In this document: in pieces, positions 6,455-23,440 of the stretch | Layout of the letters: every line of letters starts with the position of its first letter | How positions within the stretch are numbered: the stretch's first letter is position 1 | Made by a program: the position numbers and the translations under genes | Notes under the pieces: model-generated | Seen by the model: the letters and a program-made list of their open reading frames with translations, nothing else | What the model was told of the DNA's origin: nothing | Databases searched by the model: none | Source: Allostella sp. ATCC 35155 | GTDB lineage: Bacteria; Pseudomonadota; Alphaproteobacteria; ATCC43930; Allostellaceae | Reading direction: 5' to 3' | DNA: 64,000 nt | NCBI GenBank assembly: GCA_006738865.1 | Contig: AP019701.1 | Location: 2,662,001-2,726,000, forward strand

Positions 6455-7189
6455 TCAGGGTTCGAAGACCAGCTGGACGCGCTCGGCCGCCATCCGGGCG
6501 ATGCTGATCTCGATCGGCCGGCCCTCGGGATCGATGTTGAGGTTCTCGGCCACCAGCACCGGCCGCGAGCGCGGCATGTGCAGGGCCCGCGCATCCTCGG
6601 CCGAGGGCAGGCGTGCCGTCACCCGGGTCGATTTGCGGGTGTAGTCGGCGATGCCGCAGCGGGCCAGTGCGCGGGTGATCGAATCCTCCGCACGATAGGC
6701 CGCGATCATGTCAGGCACGCGACAGGCCGGAAAATAGTGCGAGGCGATGCTGATCGGCCGGCCGTCGGCCTCGCCCAGGGTCTCAAGCAGGATCAGGCTC
6801 TCCCCGCGCTTGAGGCCCAGCGGCCCCGCAATCGCCGCCTCGGCCGCGACCACGCCCGAACGCACGAGCCGCGAATGCGGCTCGCGATTCTGGCGGCGGA
6901 TCGTCTCGCTGAAGCGCGTGCGCTTGCGCACGGCATAGGCGACCGGATCGTCATGGACGAAGGTGCCGCGCCCCTGCTCCACCCGCACCAGGCCGCGCTC
7001 CTCGAGCGAGGCCAGCGCCTGGCGGACGGTGTGGCGGTTGACGCCGAACCGCTCGGCCAGCGCGTTCTCGGTCGGCATGCGGTCGCCGGGCGCCAGCCGG
7101 CGCGCGACGATCTCCGCCTCCACCGCCTGTTCGATCTGGCGCCAGAGGGCAACGCCGCCGCGGCGCGACAGGATGACCGGGTCCGTCAT
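6455..7189 (-). CDS. phnF: GntR/HutC-family transcriptional regulator of phosphonate genes
   Basis: Regulator of 244 residues with an N-terminal winged helix (about residues 10-75, including MPTENALAERFGVNRHTVRQAL) and a C-terminal UTRA ligand-binding domain, the HutC subgroup layout of PhnF. I chose the ATG at 7187-7189, where family similarity begins. An in-frame ATG at 7220-7222 would add 11 residues and a GTG further up would run into the operator. It sits between the divergent phnG operon and phnM, and a HutC-type site lies at 7259-7266. PhnF proteins in other bacteria repress phosphonate or phosphate-related genes; local control of both directions is inferred. Confidence 0.88.
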   Translation of the reverse strand: MTDPVILSRRGGVALWRQIEQAVEAEIVARRLAPGDRMPTENALAERFGVNRHTVRQALASLEERGLVRVEQGRGTFVHDDPVAYAVRKRTRFSETIRRQNREPHSRLVRSGVVAAEAAIAGPLGLKRGESLILLETLGEADGRPISIASHYFPACRVPDMIAAYRAEDSITRALARCGIADYTRKSTRVTARLPSAEDARALHMPRSRPVLVAENLNIDPEGRPIEISIARMAAERVQLVFEP

Positions 7190-7258
7190 CAAAGTTTCAG
7201 CGGATGTGGCTTTACTGACCATCGAGGCTGGGGCAGTATCGCCAGGAAAGATGCGGAC

Positions 7259-7266
7259 GTCTAGAC
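7259..7266. promoter_or_regulatory. Candidate PhnF (HutC-type) operator
   Basis: The palindrome GTCTAGAC fits the known HutC-subfamily consensus GT-N-TA-N-AC exactly. It lies 13 bases before the chosen phnG ATG and about 70 bases before the phnF start, where a PhnF repressor would be expected to act. The match is seen directly; binding is inferred. Confidence 0.6.
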
Positions 7267-7278
7267 AAATTGCAGCAG

Positions 7279-7746
7279 ATGTCGAGTAAGGAACCACCGG
7301 TCGATCCGGAGATGGCGGCGCGGCAGCGCTGGATGGCGCTGCTGGCGCGCGCCTCGGCAGAACGGCTGGAGGCCGGCCTCGCGGCGCTGGGCGAACCGCC
7401 CCGCTACGACCTGCTGCGCCGTCCGGAGACCGGCATGGTGATGGTCCGCGGACGCAGCGGCGGCACCGGCCCGCGCTTCAACCTCGGGGAAATGACCGTC
7501 ACCCGCTGCGTCGTCCGCCTCGCCGACGGGACCATGGGCCATGGCTATGTCGCCGGGCGCGACCGGCGGCACGCGGAACTGGCCGCTCTCTTCGACGCCC
7601 TGCTCCAGCAGCCGGAAGCCCGGCCGACCATCCTCGACGCCGTCATCGATCCGGTCGCGGCCGATCTCGCCGCCGCCGAACGGACGGTGCGCGAGAAGGC
7701 GGCCGCGACCAAGGTGCGCTTCTTCACGATGGTGCGCGGCGAATGA
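7279..7746 (+). CDS. phnG: C-P lyase core complex subunit PhnG
   Basis: Subunit of the PhnGHIJ core that, with PhnI, couples methylphosphonate and other phosphonates to the ribose of ATP. The product is 155 residues from the ATG at 7279; an in-frame TTG at 7270 would add three. Family features include RQRWMALLARA at the N-terminus, TRCVVRLADGTMGHGYVAGRD at mid-protein and the C-terminal KVRFFTMVRGE. It is the first gene of an operon that appears to run to azlD: its stop overlaps the phnH start by four bases (ATGA). No convincing ribosome-binding site lies close upstream, since the HutC-type operator occupies that position. Confidence 0.9.
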   Translation: MSSKEPPVDPEMAARQRWMALLARASAERLEAGLAALGEPPRYDLLRRPETGMVMVRGRSGGTGPRFNLGEMTVTRCVVRLADGTMGHGYVAGRDRRHAELAALFDALLQQPEARPTILDAVIDPVAADLAAAERTVREKAAATKVRFFTMVRGE

Positions 7747-8351
7747 CCGGACGGCTCCTCGAAACCGCCCCCGGCCCCGGTTTCGCCGATCCGGTCGCCG
7801 ACTCGCAGCGCGCCTTCCGCGCGATGCTGGAGGCGATCGCCCGCCCCGGCACGGTGCAGGCGATCGGGGCCGAGCTGACGCCGCCGGCGCCGCTGTCGCG
7901 CGCCGCGGCCGCCGCCCTGCTGACGCTGGTGGATTTCGAGACGCCGCTGTGGCTCGACGCCGCGGCACGGCAGCCCGCCGTCGAGGCCTGGGTGCGCTTC
8001 CATTGCGGCGTGCCGCTGGTCGACGACCCGGCAGCGGCACGTTTCGCGCTGGTCGCCGATCCCATGGGCTCCCTGCTGCCGCTCGACCGGTTCCCGATCG
8101 GGGAGGACGCCTTCCCCGACCGCTCGGCGACCGTGATCGTCGCCGCTGCAGGCCTGAAGAGTGGAAGCGGCTGGCGCCTGTCCGGTCCCGGCATCGAGGG
8201 CGAGGCACGCCTGGAAGCCGGTGGGCTGCCCCTGGGTTTCGCCGCCGCGTGGCAGGCGAATCGCGGGCTCTTTCCCTGCGGGATCGACCTCTTCCTGACG
8301 GCGGACGACCGCGTCGCGGCCCTGCCGCGAACGGTCCGGCTGGAGGACTGA
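7743..8351 (+). CDS. phnH: C-P lyase core complex subunit PhnH
   Basis: Structural subunit of the C-P lyase core (202 aa, normal length), needed for phosphonate use although it has no known catalytic centre. The N-terminal PGFADPVADSQRAFRAMLEAIARPGTV segment is the PhnH hallmark, and the central TLVDFETPLWLD and C-terminal FPCGIDLFL blocks are also conserved. It starts inside the phnG stop codon and ends four bases before phnI, which suggests translational coupling. Confidence 0.92.
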   Translation: MTGRLLETAPGPGFADPVADSQRAFRAMLEAIARPGTVQAIGAELTPPAPLSRAAAAALLTLVDFETPLWLDAAARQPAVEAWVRFHCGVPLVDDPAAARFALVADPMGSLLPLDRFPIGEDAFPDRSATVIVAAAGLKSGSGWRLSGPGIEGEARLEAGGLPLGFAAAWQANRGLFPCGIDLFLTADDRVAALPRTVRLED

Positions 8352-8355
8352 CGCC

Positions 8356-9462
8356 ATGTACGTCGCGGTCAAGGGCGGCGAAGCCGCCATCGCCAACGCC
8401 GAACGCCTGCTGGCCGAGACCCGGCGGGGCGACCCGGCGGTGCCGGAGATCAGCACGGCCCAGATCGAGCAGCAGCTCGGGCTGGCCGTCGACCGGGTGA
8501 TGACCGAGGGCTCGCTATACGATCGCGAACTGGCGGCGCTGGCCCTGAAGCAGGCCTGCGGCGATCAGCTGGAGGCGGTGTTCCTGCTGCGTGCCTTCCG
8601 CACCACCCTGCCCCGTTTCGGCGCATCGCAACCGATCGACACCGGCCGGATGCAGGTGGCGCGGCGCATCTCGGCGACCTTCAAGGACCTGCCCGGGGGG
8701 CAGATCCTCGGCCCCAGCTTCGACTACACCCATCGCCTCCTCGACTTCTCGCTGCTCGCCGCGGGCGAGACCCCGGGCGGCCCGCGCGGCGAATCCGACC
8801 CCGAGCCGATGCCGCACGTCCTGGCCATGCTCGACCGGGAGGGGCTGATCGAGTCCGAGATCGAGGACAGCCCCGACGCTCCCGTGCCGGACATCACCCG
8901 CGAGCCGACGACCTATCCGGCCGACCGCGCCGCGCGCCTGCAGACGCTCGCCCGCGGCGACGAGGGCTTCCTGCTCGCGCTCGGCTATTCGGTGCAGCGC
9001 GGCTATGGCCGCAACCATCCCTTCGCGGGCGAGATCCGCTTCGGCACCGTGGAGGTCGAGTTCGTGCCGGAAGAACTCGGGTTCCCGGTATCGATCGGCG
9101 ACGTCGCCGTCACCGAGTGCGAAATGATCAACCAGTTCAAGGGCTCGGCGACCGAGCCGCCACAGTTCACCCGCGGCTACGGCCTCGCCTTCGGCCATTG
9201 CGAACGCAAGACCATGGCGATGGCGCTGGTCGACCGGGCGCTGCGTGCCCGCGAACTCGGCGAGGAGATCGACTCCCCGGCCCAGGACGAGGAGTTCGTC
9301 CTGGCCCATTCGGACAATGTCGAGGCGTCCGGCTTCGTGCAGCACCTGAAGCTGCCGCACTATGTCGACTTCCAGTCCGAACTCGTCCTGGTGCGCGAGC
9401 TGCGGCGGCGCGCCGCTGCCGCGCCCGGGCGGCGCGAGACCGCCCTGGCCGGGGACGAGTGA
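8356..9462 (+). CDS. phnI: C-P lyase core subunit PhnI (nucleosidase-type)
   Basis: PhnI displaces adenine from ATP with phosphonate, with help from PhnG, PhnH and PhnL, to form ribose 1-phosphonate 5-triphosphate. The 368-residue length matches the family. Recognisable blocks are MYVAVKGGEAAIANAE at the start, the QILGPSFDYTHRLLDFSL region, and the late GYGLAFGHCERKTMAMALVDRAL segment. It sits between phnH (four-base gap) and phnJ (two-base gap). Confidence 0.93.
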   Translation: MYVAVKGGEAAIANAERLLAETRRGDPAVPEISTAQIEQQLGLAVDRVMTEGSLYDRELAALALKQACGDQLEAVFLLRAFRTTLPRFGASQPIDTGRMQVARRISATFKDLPGGQILGPSFDYTHRLLDFSLLAAGETPGGPRGESDPEPMPHVLAMLDREGLIESEIEDSPDAPVPDITREPTTYPADRAARLQTLARGDEGFLLALGYSVQRGYGRNHPFAGEIRFGTVEVEFVPEELGFPVSIGDVAVTECEMINQFKGSATEPPQFTRGYGLAFGHCERKTMAMALVDRALRARELGEEIDSPAQDEEFVLAHSDNVEASGFVQHLKLPHYVDFQSELVLVRELRRRAAAAPGRRETALAGDE

Positions 9463-9464
9463 CC

Positions 9465-10349
9465 ATGGACGGCTACAACTTCGCCTATCTCGACGAGCAG
9501 ACGAAGCGGATGATCCGCCGCGCCATCCTGAAGGCGGTGGCGATCCCGGGCTACCAGGTGCCGTTCGCGAGCCGCGAGATGCCCCTGCCCTACGGCTGGG
9601 GTACCGGCGGCATCCAGGTCACGGCCGCCATCATCGGCACCGACGACGTCCTCAAGGTCATCGACCAGGGCGCCGACGACACCACCAACGCCGTCAGCAT
9701 CCGGCGCTTCTTCGCCCGCACGACGGGCGTCGCCACGACCGAGCGCACGGCCGAGGCGACGATCGTCCAGACCCGCCACCGCATCCCGGAACGGGCGCTC
9801 TCCGCCGGCCAGATCATCGTCTTCCAGGTGCCGATCCCCGAGCCGCTGCGCTGGCTGGAGCCGCGCGAGACGGAGACCCGCAAGATGCACGCGCTCGCGG
9901 AATACGGCGCGATGCACGTCAAGCTCTACGAGGACGTGGCGCGGCACGGCCGCATCGCGACGGCCTATGACTATCCGGTCATGGTCGGCGGCCGCTATCT
10001 GATGCGGCCCTCGCCGATCCCCAAGTTCGACAATCCCAAGCTGGACCGCTCGCCGGCGCTCCAGCTCTTCGGCGCGGGGCGGGAGAAACGCATCTATGCC
10101 GTGCCGCCCTGGACCACGGTCGTCAGCCTCGACTTCGAGGACCACCCGTTCGAGGTGCAGCGGTGGGAGAGCTGCTGCGCGCTCTGCGGCGCAACCGACA
10201 GCTTCCTCGACGAGGTGATCGTGGACGACCGCGGCGGCCGCATCTTCGTCTGCTCGGACAGCGACCATTGCGGCGAGCGGCGCGCCGCCGGCCATGTCGG
10301 GCCGCAGCCGGACGCGCTCGGCCAGCCGGTCGCCGAGGAGGCCACATGA
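9465..10349 (+). CDS. phnJ: Radical-SAM C-P lyase catalytic subunit PhnJ
   Basis: Cleaves the C-P bond of alpha-D-ribose 1-phosphonate 5-phosphate by radical chemistry using a 4Fe-4S cluster and S-adenosylmethionine. The product has 294 residues. The cluster cysteines C238, C241 and C263 and the catalytic C269 keep exactly the spacing of the E. coli enzyme (241, 244, 266, 272), so the site is intact. The ATG at 9465 is chosen because the family-typical GYNFAYLDEQTKRMIRRAILKA follows at once; the open frame reaching further upstream is a shadow of phnI. The phnK start overlaps the stop (ATGA). Confidence 0.95.
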   Translation: MDGYNFAYLDEQTKRMIRRAILKAVAIPGYQVPFASREMPLPYGWGTGGIQVTAAIIGTDDVLKVIDQGADDTTNAVSIRRFFARTTGVATTERTAEATIVQTRHRIPERALSAGQIIVFQVPIPEPLRWLEPRETETRKMHALAEYGAMHVKLYEDVARHGRIATAYDYPVMVGGRYLMRPSPIPKFDNPKLDRSPALQLFGAGREKRIYAVPPWTTVVSLDFEDHPFEVQRWESCCALCGATDSFLDEVIVDDRGGRIFVCSDSDHCGERRAAGHVGPQPDALGQPVAEEAT

Positions 10350-11137
10350 CGACCCTCGCCATGACAGGCCGCCCGCTGCTGCAGGTCGAGGGGCTGACCC
10401 ACCGCTACGGCAGCCGGATCGGTTGCCGCGACGTGACGTTCGACCTCTGGCCGGGCGAGGTGCTCGGCATCGTCGGAGAGTCCGGCTCGGGCAAGACCAC
10501 CCTTCTCAAGTGCCTGTCGGCCCAGATGGAGCCCCATGCCGGCCACGTCGTCTACGACACGCGCGAGGACGGGCCGCAGGACGTGTTCGCCCTGTCCGAG
10601 CCGCGCCGCCGGCTGCTGATGCGGACCGACTGGGGCATCGTCCACCAGCACCCGGTCGAGGGCCTGCGCATGAAGGTCAGCGCCGGCGCCAATGTCGGCG
10701 AGCGGCTGATGGCGGTGGGGGCGCGCCACTATGGCGAGATCCGCGGCGCCGCGCTCGACTGGCTGGGCCGCGTCGAGATCGCCCGCGACCGCATCGACGA
10801 CATGCCGCGGACCTTCTCCGGCGGGATGCTGCAGCGGCTGCAGATCGCCCGGAACCTCGTGTCGCGCCCGCGCCTCGTCTTCATGGACGAGCCGACCGGC
10901 AGCCTCGATGTCTCGGTCCAGGCGCGCCTGCTCGACCTCCTGCGCGGGCTCGTCGCCGACCTCGGCCTCTCGGTCATCGTCGTTACGCACGACCTCGCCG
11001 TCGCGCGGCTGCTGGCGCACCGGCTGATGGTGATGCGCGCCGGCGCGGTCGTCGAGGAAGGGCTGACCGACCAGGTGCTCGACGATCCGCAGCATCCCTA
11101 CACCCAGCTTCTCGTGGCTTCGATTCTCCACCCATGA
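10346..11137 (+). CDS. phnK: C-P lyase associated ATP-binding protein PhnK
   Basis: ABC-type ATPase that docks on the C-P lyase core rather than on a membrane permease. The 263-residue product has Walker A (GESGSGKTT), the signature LSGG-like block (FSGGMLQRLQIARNL), Walker B (LVFMDEPTGSLD) and the PhnK-specific DWGIVHQHPVEGLRMKVSAG segment. It overlaps phnJ at its start and phnL at its end by four bases each. Confidence 0.93.
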   Translation: MTTLAMTGRPLLQVEGLTHRYGSRIGCRDVTFDLWPGEVLGIVGESGSGKTTLLKCLSAQMEPHAGHVVYDTREDGPQDVFALSEPRRRLLMRTDWGIVHQHPVEGLRMKVSAGANVGERLMAVGARHYGEIRGAALDWLGRVEIARDRIDDMPRTFSGGMLQRLQIARNLVSRPRLVFMDEPTGSLDVSVQARLLDLLRGLVADLGLSVIVVTHDLAVARLLAHRLMVMRAGAVVEEGLTDQVLDDPQHPYTQLLVASILHP

Positions 11138-18516: not shown

Positions 18517-19440
18517 TCACGAGACGGACGCGACGACGCTGCGGTGGGTCGCCTCGGGCTTGGCCGCGGCGGCGCTGTCGTCACCCTGGTAGACATAGCC
18601 GAGCGGCTCGCCCTGGATCGAGCAGCGCAGCATGTGGCGCGGCTTCGACTGGTCGAAATCCGCCAGCGCGACGTGCATCGTCGCACGGTTGTCCCACATG
18701 ACGAGGTCGTTGACCGTCCAGCGGTGGCGATAGACGAACTCGTCGCGAACGGCGTGCCGGGTCAGGAAGCGCAGGATCGGCTCGCTCTCCTCATCGCTGA
18801 GGCCGACGAAGTGGCGCACGCGCTGGCTCACGAACAGGGCCGCGCGGCCGCTCTCCGGATGGATCCGCACGACCGGATGGGCGATCGGCGGGTTGATCCG
18901 CTTGATCTCGGCCACCAGTTCCGGCGACCGTTGCTCGATGCCCTTCACCAGCGTGACGTCGTGGACGGCCTCCAGGCTGTCGATGAAGGCCCGCATGCGC
19001 GGCGACAGGGTCTCGTAGGCCAGGTACTGGTTGGCGAACATGGTGTCGCCGCCGACGTCCGGCCGCTCCTTGCACAGCAGCAGCGAGCCCATCGCCGGGC
19101 GGCCGGTGTAGCTGAGGTCGGAGTGCCAGTTGCGTCCGGTGTTCCGGGTTTCGGACGGCTTGCCGTTGACCGGCTTGTTGCTGACGACCAGAACCTCCGG
19201 ATGCTCCGGATGCCGGTAATAGGGGGTGGCGTCGTTGGGATCGAGCTGGCCGAACCGGCGGGAGAACGCGACATGCTGCTCGGGCGTGATGTCCTGGCCC
19301 GGCAGCACGAGGACCAGATGCTCCATCCACGCTTCGCGCAGGGCCGCGACGGTGCCGTCGTCCAGCGGCTGCCGCAGGTCGACGCCGGTGACCTCGGCGC
19401 CCAGGGCATAGCCAAGCCTGCGAATCTTCAACTCCGCCAT
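18517..19440 (-). CDS. TauD/TfdA-family Fe(II)/2-oxoglutarate dioxygenase
   Basis: Non-heme iron dioxygenase of 307 residues, the usual length. H106 and D108 (NWHSDLSY) plus a distal histidine in NRATMHVALADF form the iron site, and the arginine of RHMLRCSIQG should bind 2-oxoglutarate. Members act on taurine, sulfonates, 2,4-D, alkyl sulfates and similar compounds; the substrate cannot be read from the sequence. The ATG at 19438-19440 is chosen because the family start (KIRRLGYALGAEVTGVDL) follows directly and purine-rich GGAGGAAG precedes it. It diverges from the TTT transporter operon, which may import its substrate. Confidence 0.85.
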   Translation of the reverse strand: MAELKIRRLGYALGAEVTGVDLRQPLDDGTVAALREAWMEHLVLVLPGQDITPEQHVAFSRRFGQLDPNDATPYYRHPEHPEVLVVSNKPVNGKPSETRNTGRNWHSDLSYTGRPAMGSLLLCKERPDVGGDTMFANQYLAYETLSPRMRAFIDSLEAVHDVTLVKGIEQRSPELVAEIKRINPPIAHPVVRIHPESGRAALFVSQRVRHFVGLSDEESEPILRFLTRHAVRDEFVYRHRWTVNDLVMWDNRATMHVALADFDQSKPRHMLRCSIQGEPLGYVYQGDDSAAAAKPEATHRSVVASVS

Positions 19441-19613: not shown

Positions 19614-19676
19614 ATGAGGACGGCCAGCGACCTTGCGCCAGAGATGGGCGGACCCGCCGGGCCCCATGCGCCGTAG
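19614..19676 (+). CDS. Possible 20-residue leader peptide overlapping the tctB start
   Basis: ATG at 19614 is preceded by GGGAGA at good spacing and opens a 20-codon frame that stops at 19676, overlapping the tctB-like start (19666) in another frame. The tctB-like gene itself lacks a strong ribosome-binding site, so the short frame could couple translation. No family evidence supports it; it may be chance. Confidence 0.25.
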   Translation: MRTASDLAPEMGGPAGPHAP

Positions 19677-20976
19677 AGGCCTGCTTCTCGAAGTCGTCTT
19701 CCTGGGAGGTCTGTGCGCCGTTGCGGCGGCACTTCTCTGGTACGGCTCGTCGATCCCGCTGTGGCAGGACGACACGCTCGGGCCGGGGGCCTATCCGCTT
19801 CTGGCTCTTTCGGGCGTGCTCCTGTGCGGCGGCTGGCTGCTCCTCCGCGCCCTGATGAACCGCGACCTGCGGCTGATCTCGCCGTTTCCCGAGGGTCTGG
19901 CGGACGACACGCGGCTGCGCGTGCTGGTCGGCGGGCTGTCGCGGTCGCTCGGCCAGCGCGTGGCCGTCGACCGCCGGGTCGGAGAAGGTGCCTTCTCCGC
20001 CTTCCATGCCGGCATCCGGCTCGCACGGGACGGCAGCGTCGCGACGATCGTGGCCTCGGACGGCACCAGCCTGCCGAACTTCGACGCGGCCGCATACTGC
20101 GCAGGCCGCTTTCGCCCGGCCGCCGGCCTTTTCTTCGATCCCGACGTCGCAATCGTCCGCGCCGACAACGCCTGGACGAGCATCGACGATGCGCTCGCCG
20201 AGCGCGGTGCCGGCGATCTGCGGATCGCCTTCAACCATCACCGCGACCTTCGCCATGGGCTCGACGAGTGGCTGGCGCACGGCCTCGGTGCCCGTTTCAC
20301 GCCGTCCTACGACCCGGATGCGCAGCAGCTCCTGGCCGCCCTGGCGGAAGGCGCCATCGACGTCGCGGTGATGCACTTCTCCGAGGCCAGGATTGCGCTC
20401 TCCGACGGTCGCGCCCGCTGCATCGCGGTCGCCGCTCCCGAACCGCCGGAAGCGAGCGGGCCCGCCTTGCTGGACCGCAACGGCGCCCCGGTCGCCTCCG
20501 GCCGCTGGGCCGCACTGATGATGCCCGCCGACACGCCCGAGCCGCTGCGCGAGCGCTGGGAACAGGCGGCGCTCGCCGCGATCGCGACGCTCGACCAGGG
20601 GGAATCGCACCGCGGCGGCGCGGCCTGGGAGCCGATCCCGGGACACACGATGACCACCTTGCTCGCGGTCCAGATCGATGCCCGCCGCACCCTGCCGGAC
20701 CGGACGCCGGCCGAGTTGCGGGGCGGCCGACGCGGCGCGCTCATCGCCGCCATCGCGGGGCTCGCGGTCTTCCCCTTCGTCATGCCGCAGCTCGGCTTCT
20801 CGATCACCGCCTTTCTCTATTCCGCGGGGATGATGGCGATGCTCTGGCCGCGGCTGACGCCCGTCCGCATCGCGGTCACGTTCGCGGCTGCCGCCGTCCT
20901 GGCTTTCGGCAGCGAGGCGCTCTTCGGCGGCGTGTTCGGCGTCGTCTTTCCCGCGGCCCGGCTGTTCGGTGGCTGA
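19666..20976 (+). CDS. TctB-type TTT transporter subunit with an inserted TctC-like binding domain
   Basis: A 436-residue protein with unusual layout. Residues about 5-60 hold two membrane helices ending in the TctB-typical TLGPGAYPLLALSGVLL, and residues about 357-420 hold the remaining TctB helices (FPFVMPQLGFSITAFLY). Between them sit about 285 residues that read like a full TctC/Bug substrate-binding protein: SLGQRVAVDRRVGEG near the start, FFDPDVAIVRADNAWTSIDDALA, then GAIDVAVMHFSEA...LSDGRARCIAVAAPE and MMPADTPEPLRERWEQA. Ordinary TctB is about 150-180 residues. By the positive-inside rule (MRRR at the start, RALMNRD after helix 2, RGGRRG before helix 3) the insert would face the cytoplasm. 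The tctA and tctC genes follow directly. Confidence 0.75.
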   Translation: MRRRGLLLEVVFLGGLCAVAAALLWYGSSIPLWQDDTLGPGAYPLLALSGVLLCGGWLLLRALMNRDLRLISPFPEGLADDTRLRVLVGGLSRSLGQRVAVDRRVGEGAFSAFHAGIRLARDGSVATIVASDGTSLPNFDAAAYCAGRFRPAAGLFFDPDVAIVRADNAWTSIDDALAERGAGDLRIAFNHHRDLRHGLDEWLAHGLGARFTPSYDPDAQQLLAALAEGAIDVAVMHFSEARIALSDGRARCIAVAAPEPPEASGPALLDRNGAPVASGRWAALMMPADTPEPLRERWEQAALAAIATLDQGESHRGGAAWEPIPGHTMTTLLAVQIDARRTLPDRTPAELRGGRRGALIAAIAGLAVFPFVMPQLGFSITAFLYSAGMMAMLWPRLTPVRIAVTFAAAAVLAFGSEALFGGVFGVVFPAARLFGG

Positions 20977-22458
20977 ATGTTCGACCTGATCCTCGCCGGC
21001 TTCGGCCCGTTCCTCGACTGGAACATGCTCCTCCTCGTCTTCGGTTCGGTCGCGGCCGGGATCGTGGCGGGGGCGATTCCCGGCATCTCGGCGACCATGG
21101 GCGTGGCGCTCATCGCGCCGCTCACCTTCACCATGCCACCGCTGGCCGGCATCATGAGCCTCGTCGGCGTCTATTGCGGCGCCGTCTCGGGCGGCTCGAT
21201 CTCGGCGATCCTGCTCGGAATTCCCGGCACGCCCGGAGCGGTCGCCACCACCCTCGACGGCTATGCCATGGCGCGCCGCGGCGAGGCGGGGCTCGCGCTC
21301 GGGGTCGCGACCATCTCCTCGCTGATCGGCGGCATCATCAGCGCGCTGGCGCTCATGCTGCTCTCCTACCCGATCGCCGACTTCGCGCTGGCCTTCGGCC
21401 CGCAGGAGTATCTGGCCCTGGCGGTGTTCGCACTGACCGCGATGGCGGCGCTGTCCGGCGGCTCCTTCCTGCGCGGGATGCTGGCCGGGCTGATCGGGCT
21501 GTTCCTGGCCGGCATCGGCATCGACGAGACCTACGGCGTCTCGCGCTTCCACTTCGACCAGACCTACCTGATGGGCGGGATCTCCTTCATCCCCGCCATC
21601 ATCGGCCTTTTCGCCCTGCCGGAGACGCTGCAGGGCATCGAGCGGATCGGACCGGTGCCGCGGCGCGCGATCCAGATTTCCCGGATCCTGCCGAGCGCCC
21701 GCCTCGCCCGCCGCCTCCTGCCCGCCCAGTTGCGCTGTGGCGTCATCGGCGTCATCGTCGGCGCCGTGCCGGGCACCGGCAGCGACATCGCCGCCATCAT
21801 CGGCTACAGCCAGGGCCGCAACCTCTCCCGCCATCCCGAGCGCTTCGGCACCGGCGAGCCGGAAGGCGTGGCCTGCCCGGAAGCCGCCAACAACGGCGCG
21901 ACCGGCGGCAGCCTGATCCCGCTCCTCACGCTGGGCATCCCGGGCGGCGCGGTCGCCGCGATCATGCTCGGTACCTTCATGACGCACGGGCTGCAGCCGG
22001 GCCCGTTGCTGATGCAGAACAACGCCGAGATCGTCTACCAGATCTTCGCCGGGACGATGATCGCGTGCATCGCCGTCGGCATCCTCGGCCTGCTCGGCGC
22101 CCGGCTCTTCGCGCGCGTCCTCGCCGTACCGGAGGCGGTGCTGACGGTGGCCGTGCTCGTCCTCTGCGTGCTCGGCGCCTTCTCGATGCGCAACGACACC
22201 ACCGACGTCGCGATCATGGTGATCGCCGGCCTGCTCGGCTACGCCATGGTCAAGCTCGACATTCCCCGGGCGCCGCTGGTCATCGGACTGATCCTCGGCC
22301 CCATGGTCGAGAGCGAACTGAGCCGCACGCTGATCGTGACCTCGGACGACCGACTCAACATCTTCACGCCGATCAGCACCGTCATCTGGCTGCTCACGGC
22401 CGCCCCGCTGATCGTACCGCTCGTCGCGCGCGTCTTCCGACGCTTGCGGCAGGCATAA
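20977..22458 (+). CDS. tctA: TTT transporter large membrane subunit TctA
   Basis: Large permease of a tripartite tricarboxylate transporter, 493 residues with about ten or more membrane segments. Hallmarks are AGIVAGAIPGISATMGVALIAPLTF near residue 25, GAVSGGSISAILLGIPGTPGAVATTLDGY near 70, and the second repeat NGATGGSLIPLLTLGIPGGAVAAIMLG near 315. It takes up a carboxylate driven by a cation gradient, receiving it from TctC. The ATG directly follows the TctB-like stop codon, so translation is likely coupled. Confidence 0.9.
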   Translation: MFDLILAGFGPFLDWNMLLLVFGSVAAGIVAGAIPGISATMGVALIAPLTFTMPPLAGIMSLVGVYCGAVSGGSISAILLGIPGTPGAVATTLDGYAMARRGEAGLALGVATISSLIGGIISALALMLLSYPIADFALAFGPQEYLALAVFALTAMAALSGGSFLRGMLAGLIGLFLAGIGIDETYGVSRFHFDQTYLMGGISFIPAIIGLFALPETLQGIERIGPVPRRAIQISRILPSARLARRLLPAQLRCGVIGVIVGAVPGTGSDIAAIIGYSQGRNLSRHPERFGTGEPEGVACPEAANNGATGGSLIPLLTLGIPGGAVAAIMLGTFMTHGLQPGPLLMQNNAEIVYQIFAGTMIACIAVGILGLLGARLFARVLAVPEAVLTVAVLVLCVLGAFSMRNDTTDVAIMVIAGLLGYAMVKLDIPRAPLVIGLILGPMVESELSRTLIVTSDDRLNIFTPISTVIWLLTAAPLIVPLVARVFRRLRQA

Positions 22459-22474: not shown

Positions 22475-23440
22475 ATGCGCACGACACAGATCGCCGCGAT
22501 CGCCGCCGGGCTCGGCCTGGCGCTGGGGGCATTCCCCGCAGCAGCGGCCGAATTCCCCTCCAAGCCGATCGAGGTCGTCATCCCGTTCGCCCAGGGCGGC
22601 GGCACCGACCAGGTCGGCCGAGCCTTCGCCCAGTTCGCCAAGCCGCATCTCGGCGTCGACCTCTTCGTCAGCAACCGCACCGGCGGCAGCGGTGCGACCG
22701 GCTTCGCCTACGGCGCCCAGGCAGCCCCCGACGGACATGTCATCACGATGACCGTGACGACGCTGGTCTCCGCCCCGCACACGATCAAGGGCTATCCGGT
22801 CACCTATCGGGACTTCAAGACGATCTGCCTGATCTCGGCGCCGCCGGGCGTCCTCAGCGTCCACAAGGACAGCCCCTTCAAGACCCTGAAGGATCTCATC
22901 GCCTTCGGTAAGGCCAACCCGAAGAAGCTGACCTTCGGCACCGCCGGGCCCGGCAGCAACACCCACCTCATCGGCGCGGCTTTCGCCAACAAGGCCGGCA
23001 TCGAAGTGCGCTACGTCCCGCACCGCGGTTCGGGTCCGGTGCTGACGGCCACATTCGGCAAGCATGTCGACGTGGCCGTGACCGACAAGGCCGAGGCCCT
23101 GCCCTGGCTCACGGACGGGCGCCTGCGGGCACTGACGGTGTTCACCGGCGAAGCCGACAGCGGCCTGAAGGACGTCCCCACCGCCAAGGCCGCCGGCTTC
23201 GACATGGACATCGGCTCGTTCCGCGCGCTGGGTGCTCCCAAGGATACGCCGGCGCCCGTCATGGCCAAGCTGATCGACGGCTGCCGCAAGACCGCCGCCG
23301 ACAAGGAGTTCATCACCTTCCTCGAGAAGACCGGAACCGAGATCAACACCAAGTTCGGCGATGACGCCGCCGCCTGGATCAAGCAGCAGGACGAGCTGTT
23401 CGGCGAGGCGGCCCGCATCGTCTCCGGTCAGGGCAGCTGA
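22475..23440 (+). CDS. tctC: TTT transporter periplasmic binding protein (TctC/Bug family)
   Basis: Periplasmic receptor of the Bug family, 321 residues with a clear N-terminal signal peptide (residues 1 to about 23, ending at AAAAEFPSKPI). Family motifs are VVIPFAQGGGTDQVGR, the loop NRTGGSGATG, the APDGH block and the SPFKTLKDLIAF segment. It carries its ligand to the membrane subunits just upstream, after a good ribosome-binding site (GGGAGG). The ligand is unknown. The domain inserted in the TctB-like protein aligns block by block with this one but is much diverged, so it is not a recent copy. Confidence 0.9.
   Translation: MRTTQIAAIAAGLGLALGAFPAAAAEFPSKPIEVVIPFAQGGGTDQVGRAFAQFAKPHLGVDLFVSNRTGGSGATGFAYGAQAAPDGHVITMTVTTLVSAPHTIKGYPVTYRDFKTICLISAPPGVLSVHKDSPFKTLKDLIAFGKANPKKLTFGTAGPGSNTHLIGAAFANKAGIEVRYVPHRGSGPVLTATFGKHVDVAVTDKAEALPWLTDGRLRALTVFTGEADSGLKDVPTAKAAGFDMDIGSFRALGAPKDTPAPVMAKLIDGCRKTAADKEFITFLEKTGTEINTKFGDDAAAWIKQQDELFGEAARIVSGQGS

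Follow-up and report, generated by a model that had tools for sequence, protein, structure and literature searches.

In the 64,000-nucleotide stretch of the Allostella sp. ATCC 35155 genome analysed here (the window), a single gene encodes a TctB membrane subunit whose two ends enclose a whole TctC-type binding domain, an architecture that we regard as practically certain. The gene lies on the forward strand, runs from an ATG at 19666 to a stop at 20976 with no internal stop, and gives one protein of 436 residues. Its TctB N-terminal part (residues 1–63; 19666–19854), delimited by alignments with ordinary TctBs and by the helices of a structural model, comprises a helix at 3–27, a GPGAYP turn, and a helix that begins at 42. 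The inserted TctC/Bug-fold domain (residues 64–347; 19855–20706) is placed by phmmer, by VIA-align, and by its grouping in one clade with the inserts of the other five genomes. The TctB C-terminal part (residues 348–436 and the stop; 20707–20976) is recognized by Pfam TctB, by the alignments, and by the model, which gives it helices at 353–376, 378–393, and 399–423. With 436 residues and a 284-residue domain, the protein departs from the small TctB of four to five helices without a large soluble domain. A 20-codon open frame follows a GGGAGAG at the front of the gene (19614–19676, forward strand) and ends just inside the nested-gene start in another frame; it is possibly a leader peptide or a means of translational coupling.

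The protein as a whole matches Pfam TctB above the cut-off (8.9e-10) in two stretches, the printed best being 332–429, and all six nested proteins known to us exceed the curated cut-off of PF07331 (37.9–42.7 bits against 29.1). When a genome-wide scan meets the C-terminal part alone, both Stella nested proteins fall just under that cut-off, with 25.5 and 28.1. Besides the nested protein there are ten TctB matches in its own genome and twelve in Stella (now Allostella) vacuolata ATCC 43931. The twelve ordinary S. vacuolata TctBs, with starts picked by our own rule, have 140–185 residues (the sequence-only reading had given about 150–180 as normal for TctB), and they carry a short loop at the place of the insert. 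Two alignments with these proteins place the insert where it replaces the short loop between helices 2 and 3 of TctB: one holds all 12, with the insert excised beforehand at boundaries of our choosing, and the other holds whole proteins, including 10 of the 12. Four ordinary TctB matches of ATCC 35155 sit in stop-to-stop frames of 302–663 residues, and the long TctB frames of S. vacuolata were set aside as candidates since they reduce to the 140–185-residue proteins once the start is chosen by our rule.

The insert has the complete fold of the TctC/Bug receptors (PF03401; for example 4x9t, 25hk, and Bug27), but it is internal to a membrane protein, predicted to be cytoplasmic, and without a signal peptide of its own. 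Pfam TctC matches residues 85–305 at 3.8e-5, under its cut-off (23.8 against 27 bits), and the cut-off of 27 bits is missed by all six inserts, four of which score 23.8, 17.9, 23.7, and 26.9, while the two of the Thalassobaculum genus give no Pfam TctC match up to E 0.1. A single-sequence phmmer search of the PDB ranks TctC-type proteins first (25hk, 5e-14 over 65–306; 4x9t, 8.3e-12). An AlphaFold2 model of the nested protein (pLDDT 88.5, pTM 0.78), built on 30 rows made up of six nested proteins, 14 mature TctCs, and 10 TctBs, shows helices at 3–27 and 42–64, an alpha/beta domain, and three C-terminal helices. Comparison of model residues 64–347 with the TctC structure 4x9t by VIA-align gave a Z of 26.6 and an rmsd of 3.0 over 278 of 288 residues, at an identity of 20–22% across the whole domain; the remaining TctC/Bug structures reached Z 18.5–23.1, and binding proteins outside TctC/Bug at most 14.5. 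VIA-align re-compared the Foldseek matches and carries little information on the helices. Because TctC rows were in its alignment, the model is not independent of TctC, whereas phmmer needed no alignment; a model from the six nested rows alone (pLDDT 60) still placed TctC/Bug structures first, with 4x9t at E 4.8e-14. The layout proposed by the sequence-only reading, two TctB ends around a TctC-like domain, is thus borne out by Pfam, phmmer, the alignments, and the model, and the limits it had drawn for the insert, 66–350, lie close to the fold match. Its expectation that the domain would be recognized as TctC or a related binding protein likewise agrees with Pfam, phmmer, and VIA-align, all of which point to TctC.

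A frameshift, a misassembly, or a fusion artefact, the pitfall that the sequence-only reading had named, would have only the unusual layout in its favour, and we consider it scarcely conceivable and reject it, as the nested frame is present in six genomes. The search for homologues with the same nesting that had been advised returned five further genomes, whose nested frames have no internal stops; one copy lies on a complete plasmid, where it is annotated simply as a TctB family protein, one gene with 431 codons ahead of its stop. All six proteins belong to Alphaproteobacteria: two to Stella, two to one genus of another family, and two to the genus of Thalassobaculum. The S. vacuolata relative is 37% identical over residues 3–433. 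In an even sample of the class, four of 385 genomes matched at E 1e-20, namely the genome of the window, two of the one genus in another family, and Thalassobaculum sp. OXR-137; in a sample of the phylum three of 398 matched at E 1e-25, with nesting only in the genome of the window. At most four candidates were scored per genome in these two samples, which makes absences from them not firm. The own order contributed two of 43 genomes, both of the own genus, and the family of Thalassobaculum two of 36, adding a second genome of that genus. The two other matches in the phylum sample, G658 and G772, were rejected as nested proteins, as they cover only profile positions 54–359 and 56–358, with in-frame stops, and the frames at those places encode ordinary TctCs, 310 and 308 residues long. 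L004, a frame of 843 residues that matches TctC, proved to be an open GC-rich frame that ends in an ordinary TctC.

The distribution is patchy even within genera, with two of four genomes carrying the protein in the own genus, two of four in the second genus, and two of six in the genus of Thalassobaculum. In Thalassobaculum sp. OXR-137 the cassette lies at 7183–10952 of plasmid NZ_CP139716.1, which is complete and typed as mobilizable. A mobilizable plasmid together with presence in only some genomes of each genus suggests that the cassette has moved between lineages. A plasmid search returned this one Thalassobaculum record only, at E limits of both 1e-10 and 1e-60. The nested protein had no match among viral contigs or phages, nor had a single nested protein used as the query against genome contigs, and neither the nested protein nor its TctC matched NCBIfam. 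As the plasmid record says simply TctB and all six inserts lie under the TctC cut-off, more such proteins may go unnoticed. In the four genomes outside Stella the nested gene is open for about 50–60 residues further upstream (L038 from 5313; L013, L011/L014, and L012/L015 upstream of the aligned nested start), and these stretches have in common a QC(M/T)P(A/G)xYP sequence that is absent from the two Stella proteins; the plasmid annotation starts later.

The gene context is that of a transporter of the TTT family, in which TctA, TctB, and a separate TctC are encoded together. Directly downstream in the window follow the permease gene tctA (20977–22458, forward; Pfam TctA 5.4e-145) and an ordinary tctC (22475–23440, forward; Pfam TctC 3.8e-47), which the sequence-only reading had already placed at 22475. 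By our reading this TctC has a signal-like N-terminus, and in the tree it groups with the TctCs encoded next to the other nested genes. Both genes accompany the nested gene in all six loci, with tctC preceding it in S. vacuolata. A divergent gene for a TauD/TfdA-family dioxygenase (18517–19440, reverse; Pfam TauD 4.1e-74, and tblastn) lies on the other side. Each of the six nested genes has a homologue of this dioxygenase as a neighbour, and tblastn at an E limit of 1e-5 found none in 22 regions of about 12 kb each (two of them overlapping) that surround ordinary TctB genes in both Stella genomes. The dioxygenase gene is divergent in both Stella genomes and codirectional in the four remaining loci. 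Compared with the TctA of the window, those of the five further cassettes are 67–71% identical, and the best one from each of the 22 ordinary regions 35–41%; in the class sample, a close TctA (E 1e-155) occurs in just the four genomes that have a nested protein. The TctA of the window found no relative among PDB sequences. Upstream, the four loci outside Stella carry a gene for a GntR-type regulator (L018:6730–7476, L014:7519–8310, L015:1025–1831, and L038:3206–4033), the label coming from the plasmid annotation in L018 and from our own reading in the other three, and S. vacuolata has downstream what we take to be an IclR-like gene (L017:8774–9658).

To predict on which side of the membrane the insert lies, we counted charges on the loops given by hydropathy, pooled over the six nested proteins and with the N-terminal segments excluded from both the inner and the outer sum. 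Lysines and arginines number 52 in the 247 residues of the predicted inner loops (the insert flanks and the loop that precedes the last helix), as against 10 in 234 residues of the predicted outer loops (between helices 1 and 2, between helices 3 and 4, and the C-terminus); Fisher's test gives p 2e-8 on pooled residues, treating related sequences as independent. The two flanks have 18 and 23 such residues, and the next inner loop has 11 with no aspartate or glutamate. After the insert, the hydropathy scan finds two helices in the ATCC 35155 protein and three in each of its five nested relatives, and the model has three there; we predict five membrane helices for the nested TctB. From this charge pattern the insert is likely to be on the cytoplasmic side, as the sequence-only reading had supposed, and this placement is still a prediction. 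The nested TctB could instead be inverted, or its loop could cross the membrane, which would make the insert a periplasmic, tethered second receptor. TctC domains normally act in the periplasm (PMC5812351), and the nested proteins begin with segments that have no net positive charge (16 K+R against 17 D+E in 142 residues). We nevertheless find such an arrangement improbable, given the basic residues on both flanks and in the next inner loop, the poverty of the outer loops, and the same pattern in ten ordinary TctBs (36 of 201 inner against 18 of 355 outer residues). For TctBs, moreover, a 2018 review gives predictions of four to five helices with the N-terminus inside (PMC5812351). An ordinary TctC is also already encoded in all six loci, and the residues that would grip a ligand in the insert are altered.

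In ordinary TctCs, according to the review, the loop of a near-ubiquitous signature, P-F-x-A-G-G-x-x-D, and the loop after beta7 pinch the carboxylate of the ligand (PMC5812351). All six inserts retain the proline, the phenylalanine, the first glycine, and the aspartate of the signature, and all six have leucine for its second glycine. This glycine is found in 13 of 14 TctCs and in no insert, and the glycine of loop 2, a loop that we assigned from the model strands, in 14 of 14 TctCs and again in no insert. Because both pincer loops have lost one signature glycine in every one of the six, the insert appears unlikely to bind a ligand the way an ordinary TctC does. It could rather have given up ligand binding to become a docking platform, which would hold the dioxygenase or another cytoplasmic partner or stiffen the TctA–TctB pair. 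This is the main rival to the sensor or gate discussed below, and we think it less likely, though it draws on more than the lost glycines: the dioxygenase neighbours six of six nested genes and 0 of 22 ordinary ones, and F157, W202, and W321 are invariant in the six inserts and found in none of the 14 TctCs. The association with the dioxygenase is, however, explicable by a shared substrate alone, and five of the six inserts show preferential conservation of the loops that end strands in the cleft. With S. vacuolata left aside, 20 of 38 cleft-loop positions are invariant against 64 of 238 elsewhere (p 0.002), and in the six adjacent TctCs the corresponding numbers are 24 of 38 and 82 of 238. 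Once the S. vacuolata insert is added, significance is lost, with 9 of 38 positions in the loops and 38 of 238 elsewhere (p 0.25). The cleft loops are our assignment from the model strands, and these comparisons treat related sequences as independent. The S. vacuolata insert lacks many residues common to the other five and, around residues 236–250, shows a short deletion as well as an insertion (locus L017:5852–7189), so that it looks eroded and may be losing its ligand site. The cleft thus looks reshaped rather than dead, except perhaps in S. vacuolata. Residues 191–197 (20236–20256) form a clade-specific stretch of histidine and aspartate that could be a metal or ligand site; it reads HHRDLRH in ATCC 35155 and HHxDxDH in the four inserts outside Stella (L014, L015, L018, and L038), and is lost in S. 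vacuolata.

A tree built from 20 domains groups the six inserts together (100/100) and, as a second clade, the six adjacent TctCs (100/100). Both clades branch alike, with S. vacuolata first, then ATCC 35155, then the two other genera, although the step between the two Stella members is weak among the adjacent TctCs (77/72). This like branching is consistent with a single insertion, after which the cassette descended as a unit: a whole TctC-type domain would have entered the short inner loop of a genuine TctB once and then been retained. Could it have been retained merely as a tolerated passenger, a neutral insertion now decaying? The insert does evolve faster than the adjacent TctC, as the own protein and its four relatives outside Stella are 40–45% identical in the insert and 62–65% in TctC, and the S. 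vacuolata copy is eroded. Yet two close pairs give the insert dN/dS values of 0.18 and 0.15, which exceed those of the adjacent TctC (0.07 and 0.11) and inside the range of the TctB ends (0.09–0.27). Its length is kept across families, and 47 of its positions are invariant in all six copies (19 of them occur in at most two of 14 TctCs). We therefore hold a mere passenger to be very improbable.

We favour, by inference, a sensor or gate over a docking platform. If the predicted topology is correct, the insert cannot be the periplasmic receptor, a role that the separate TctC with its signal-like N-terminus probably keeps. In the mechanism that we propose, the ordinary TctC would still bring substrate from the periplasm to TctA, and the inner domain would open and close on a cytoplasmic metabolite, either the imported substrate or the product of the dioxygenase, and would thereby brake or permit transport through TctB. 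That the TctC-derived insert senses a cytoplasmic metabolite to control the importer is a proposal to which we give nearly an even chance. Slightly more tentative is the wider reading of an inside-facing receptor that either reads the substrate or the dioxygenase product and gates the importer, or hands the substrate to the enzyme.

Among known systems, TctB itself (PF07331) comes close: it has in common with the nested protein both ends, the helix order and charge pattern, a GPGxYP-type turn, and a place beside tctA and tctC, and it differs in having a short helix 2–3 loop where the nested TctB has its 284-residue domain. In GlnPQ-type ABC importers a binding-protein fold is likewise covalently part of the transporter, but those fused domains lie outside the membrane and are themselves the receptors; 6h30, a structure of GlnPQ domains, was among the matches of the model. 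The methionine importer MetNI and the molybdate importer ModBC, in which a cytoplasmic ligand-binding domain acts as a brake at high internal substrate, may offer a functional parallel, although they are driven by ATP and their brake domains are unrelated to the insert. We know of no earlier inside-facing receptor in the TTT family. Titles and abstract openings in the literature outside subscription papers gave no TctB–TctC nesting, and the terms tried gave nothing on transinhibition. A rearranged TTT subunit is also found in the TctAB fusion of Paraburkholderia caribensis, the one TTT fusion mentioned in the available part of the review; it joins two membrane subunits, in contrast to a receptor domain inside one subunit (PMC5812351).

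If our reading is true, the nested TctB would be the first inside-facing receptor known to us in the TTT family and would provide a first function for a TctB, and a binding-protein fold would have been put to use on the other face of the membrane. The function of TctB is given as unknown in the 2018 review (PMC5812351). The nested TctB makes this question testable in one gene, where altering a single domain asks whether TctB controls the permease.
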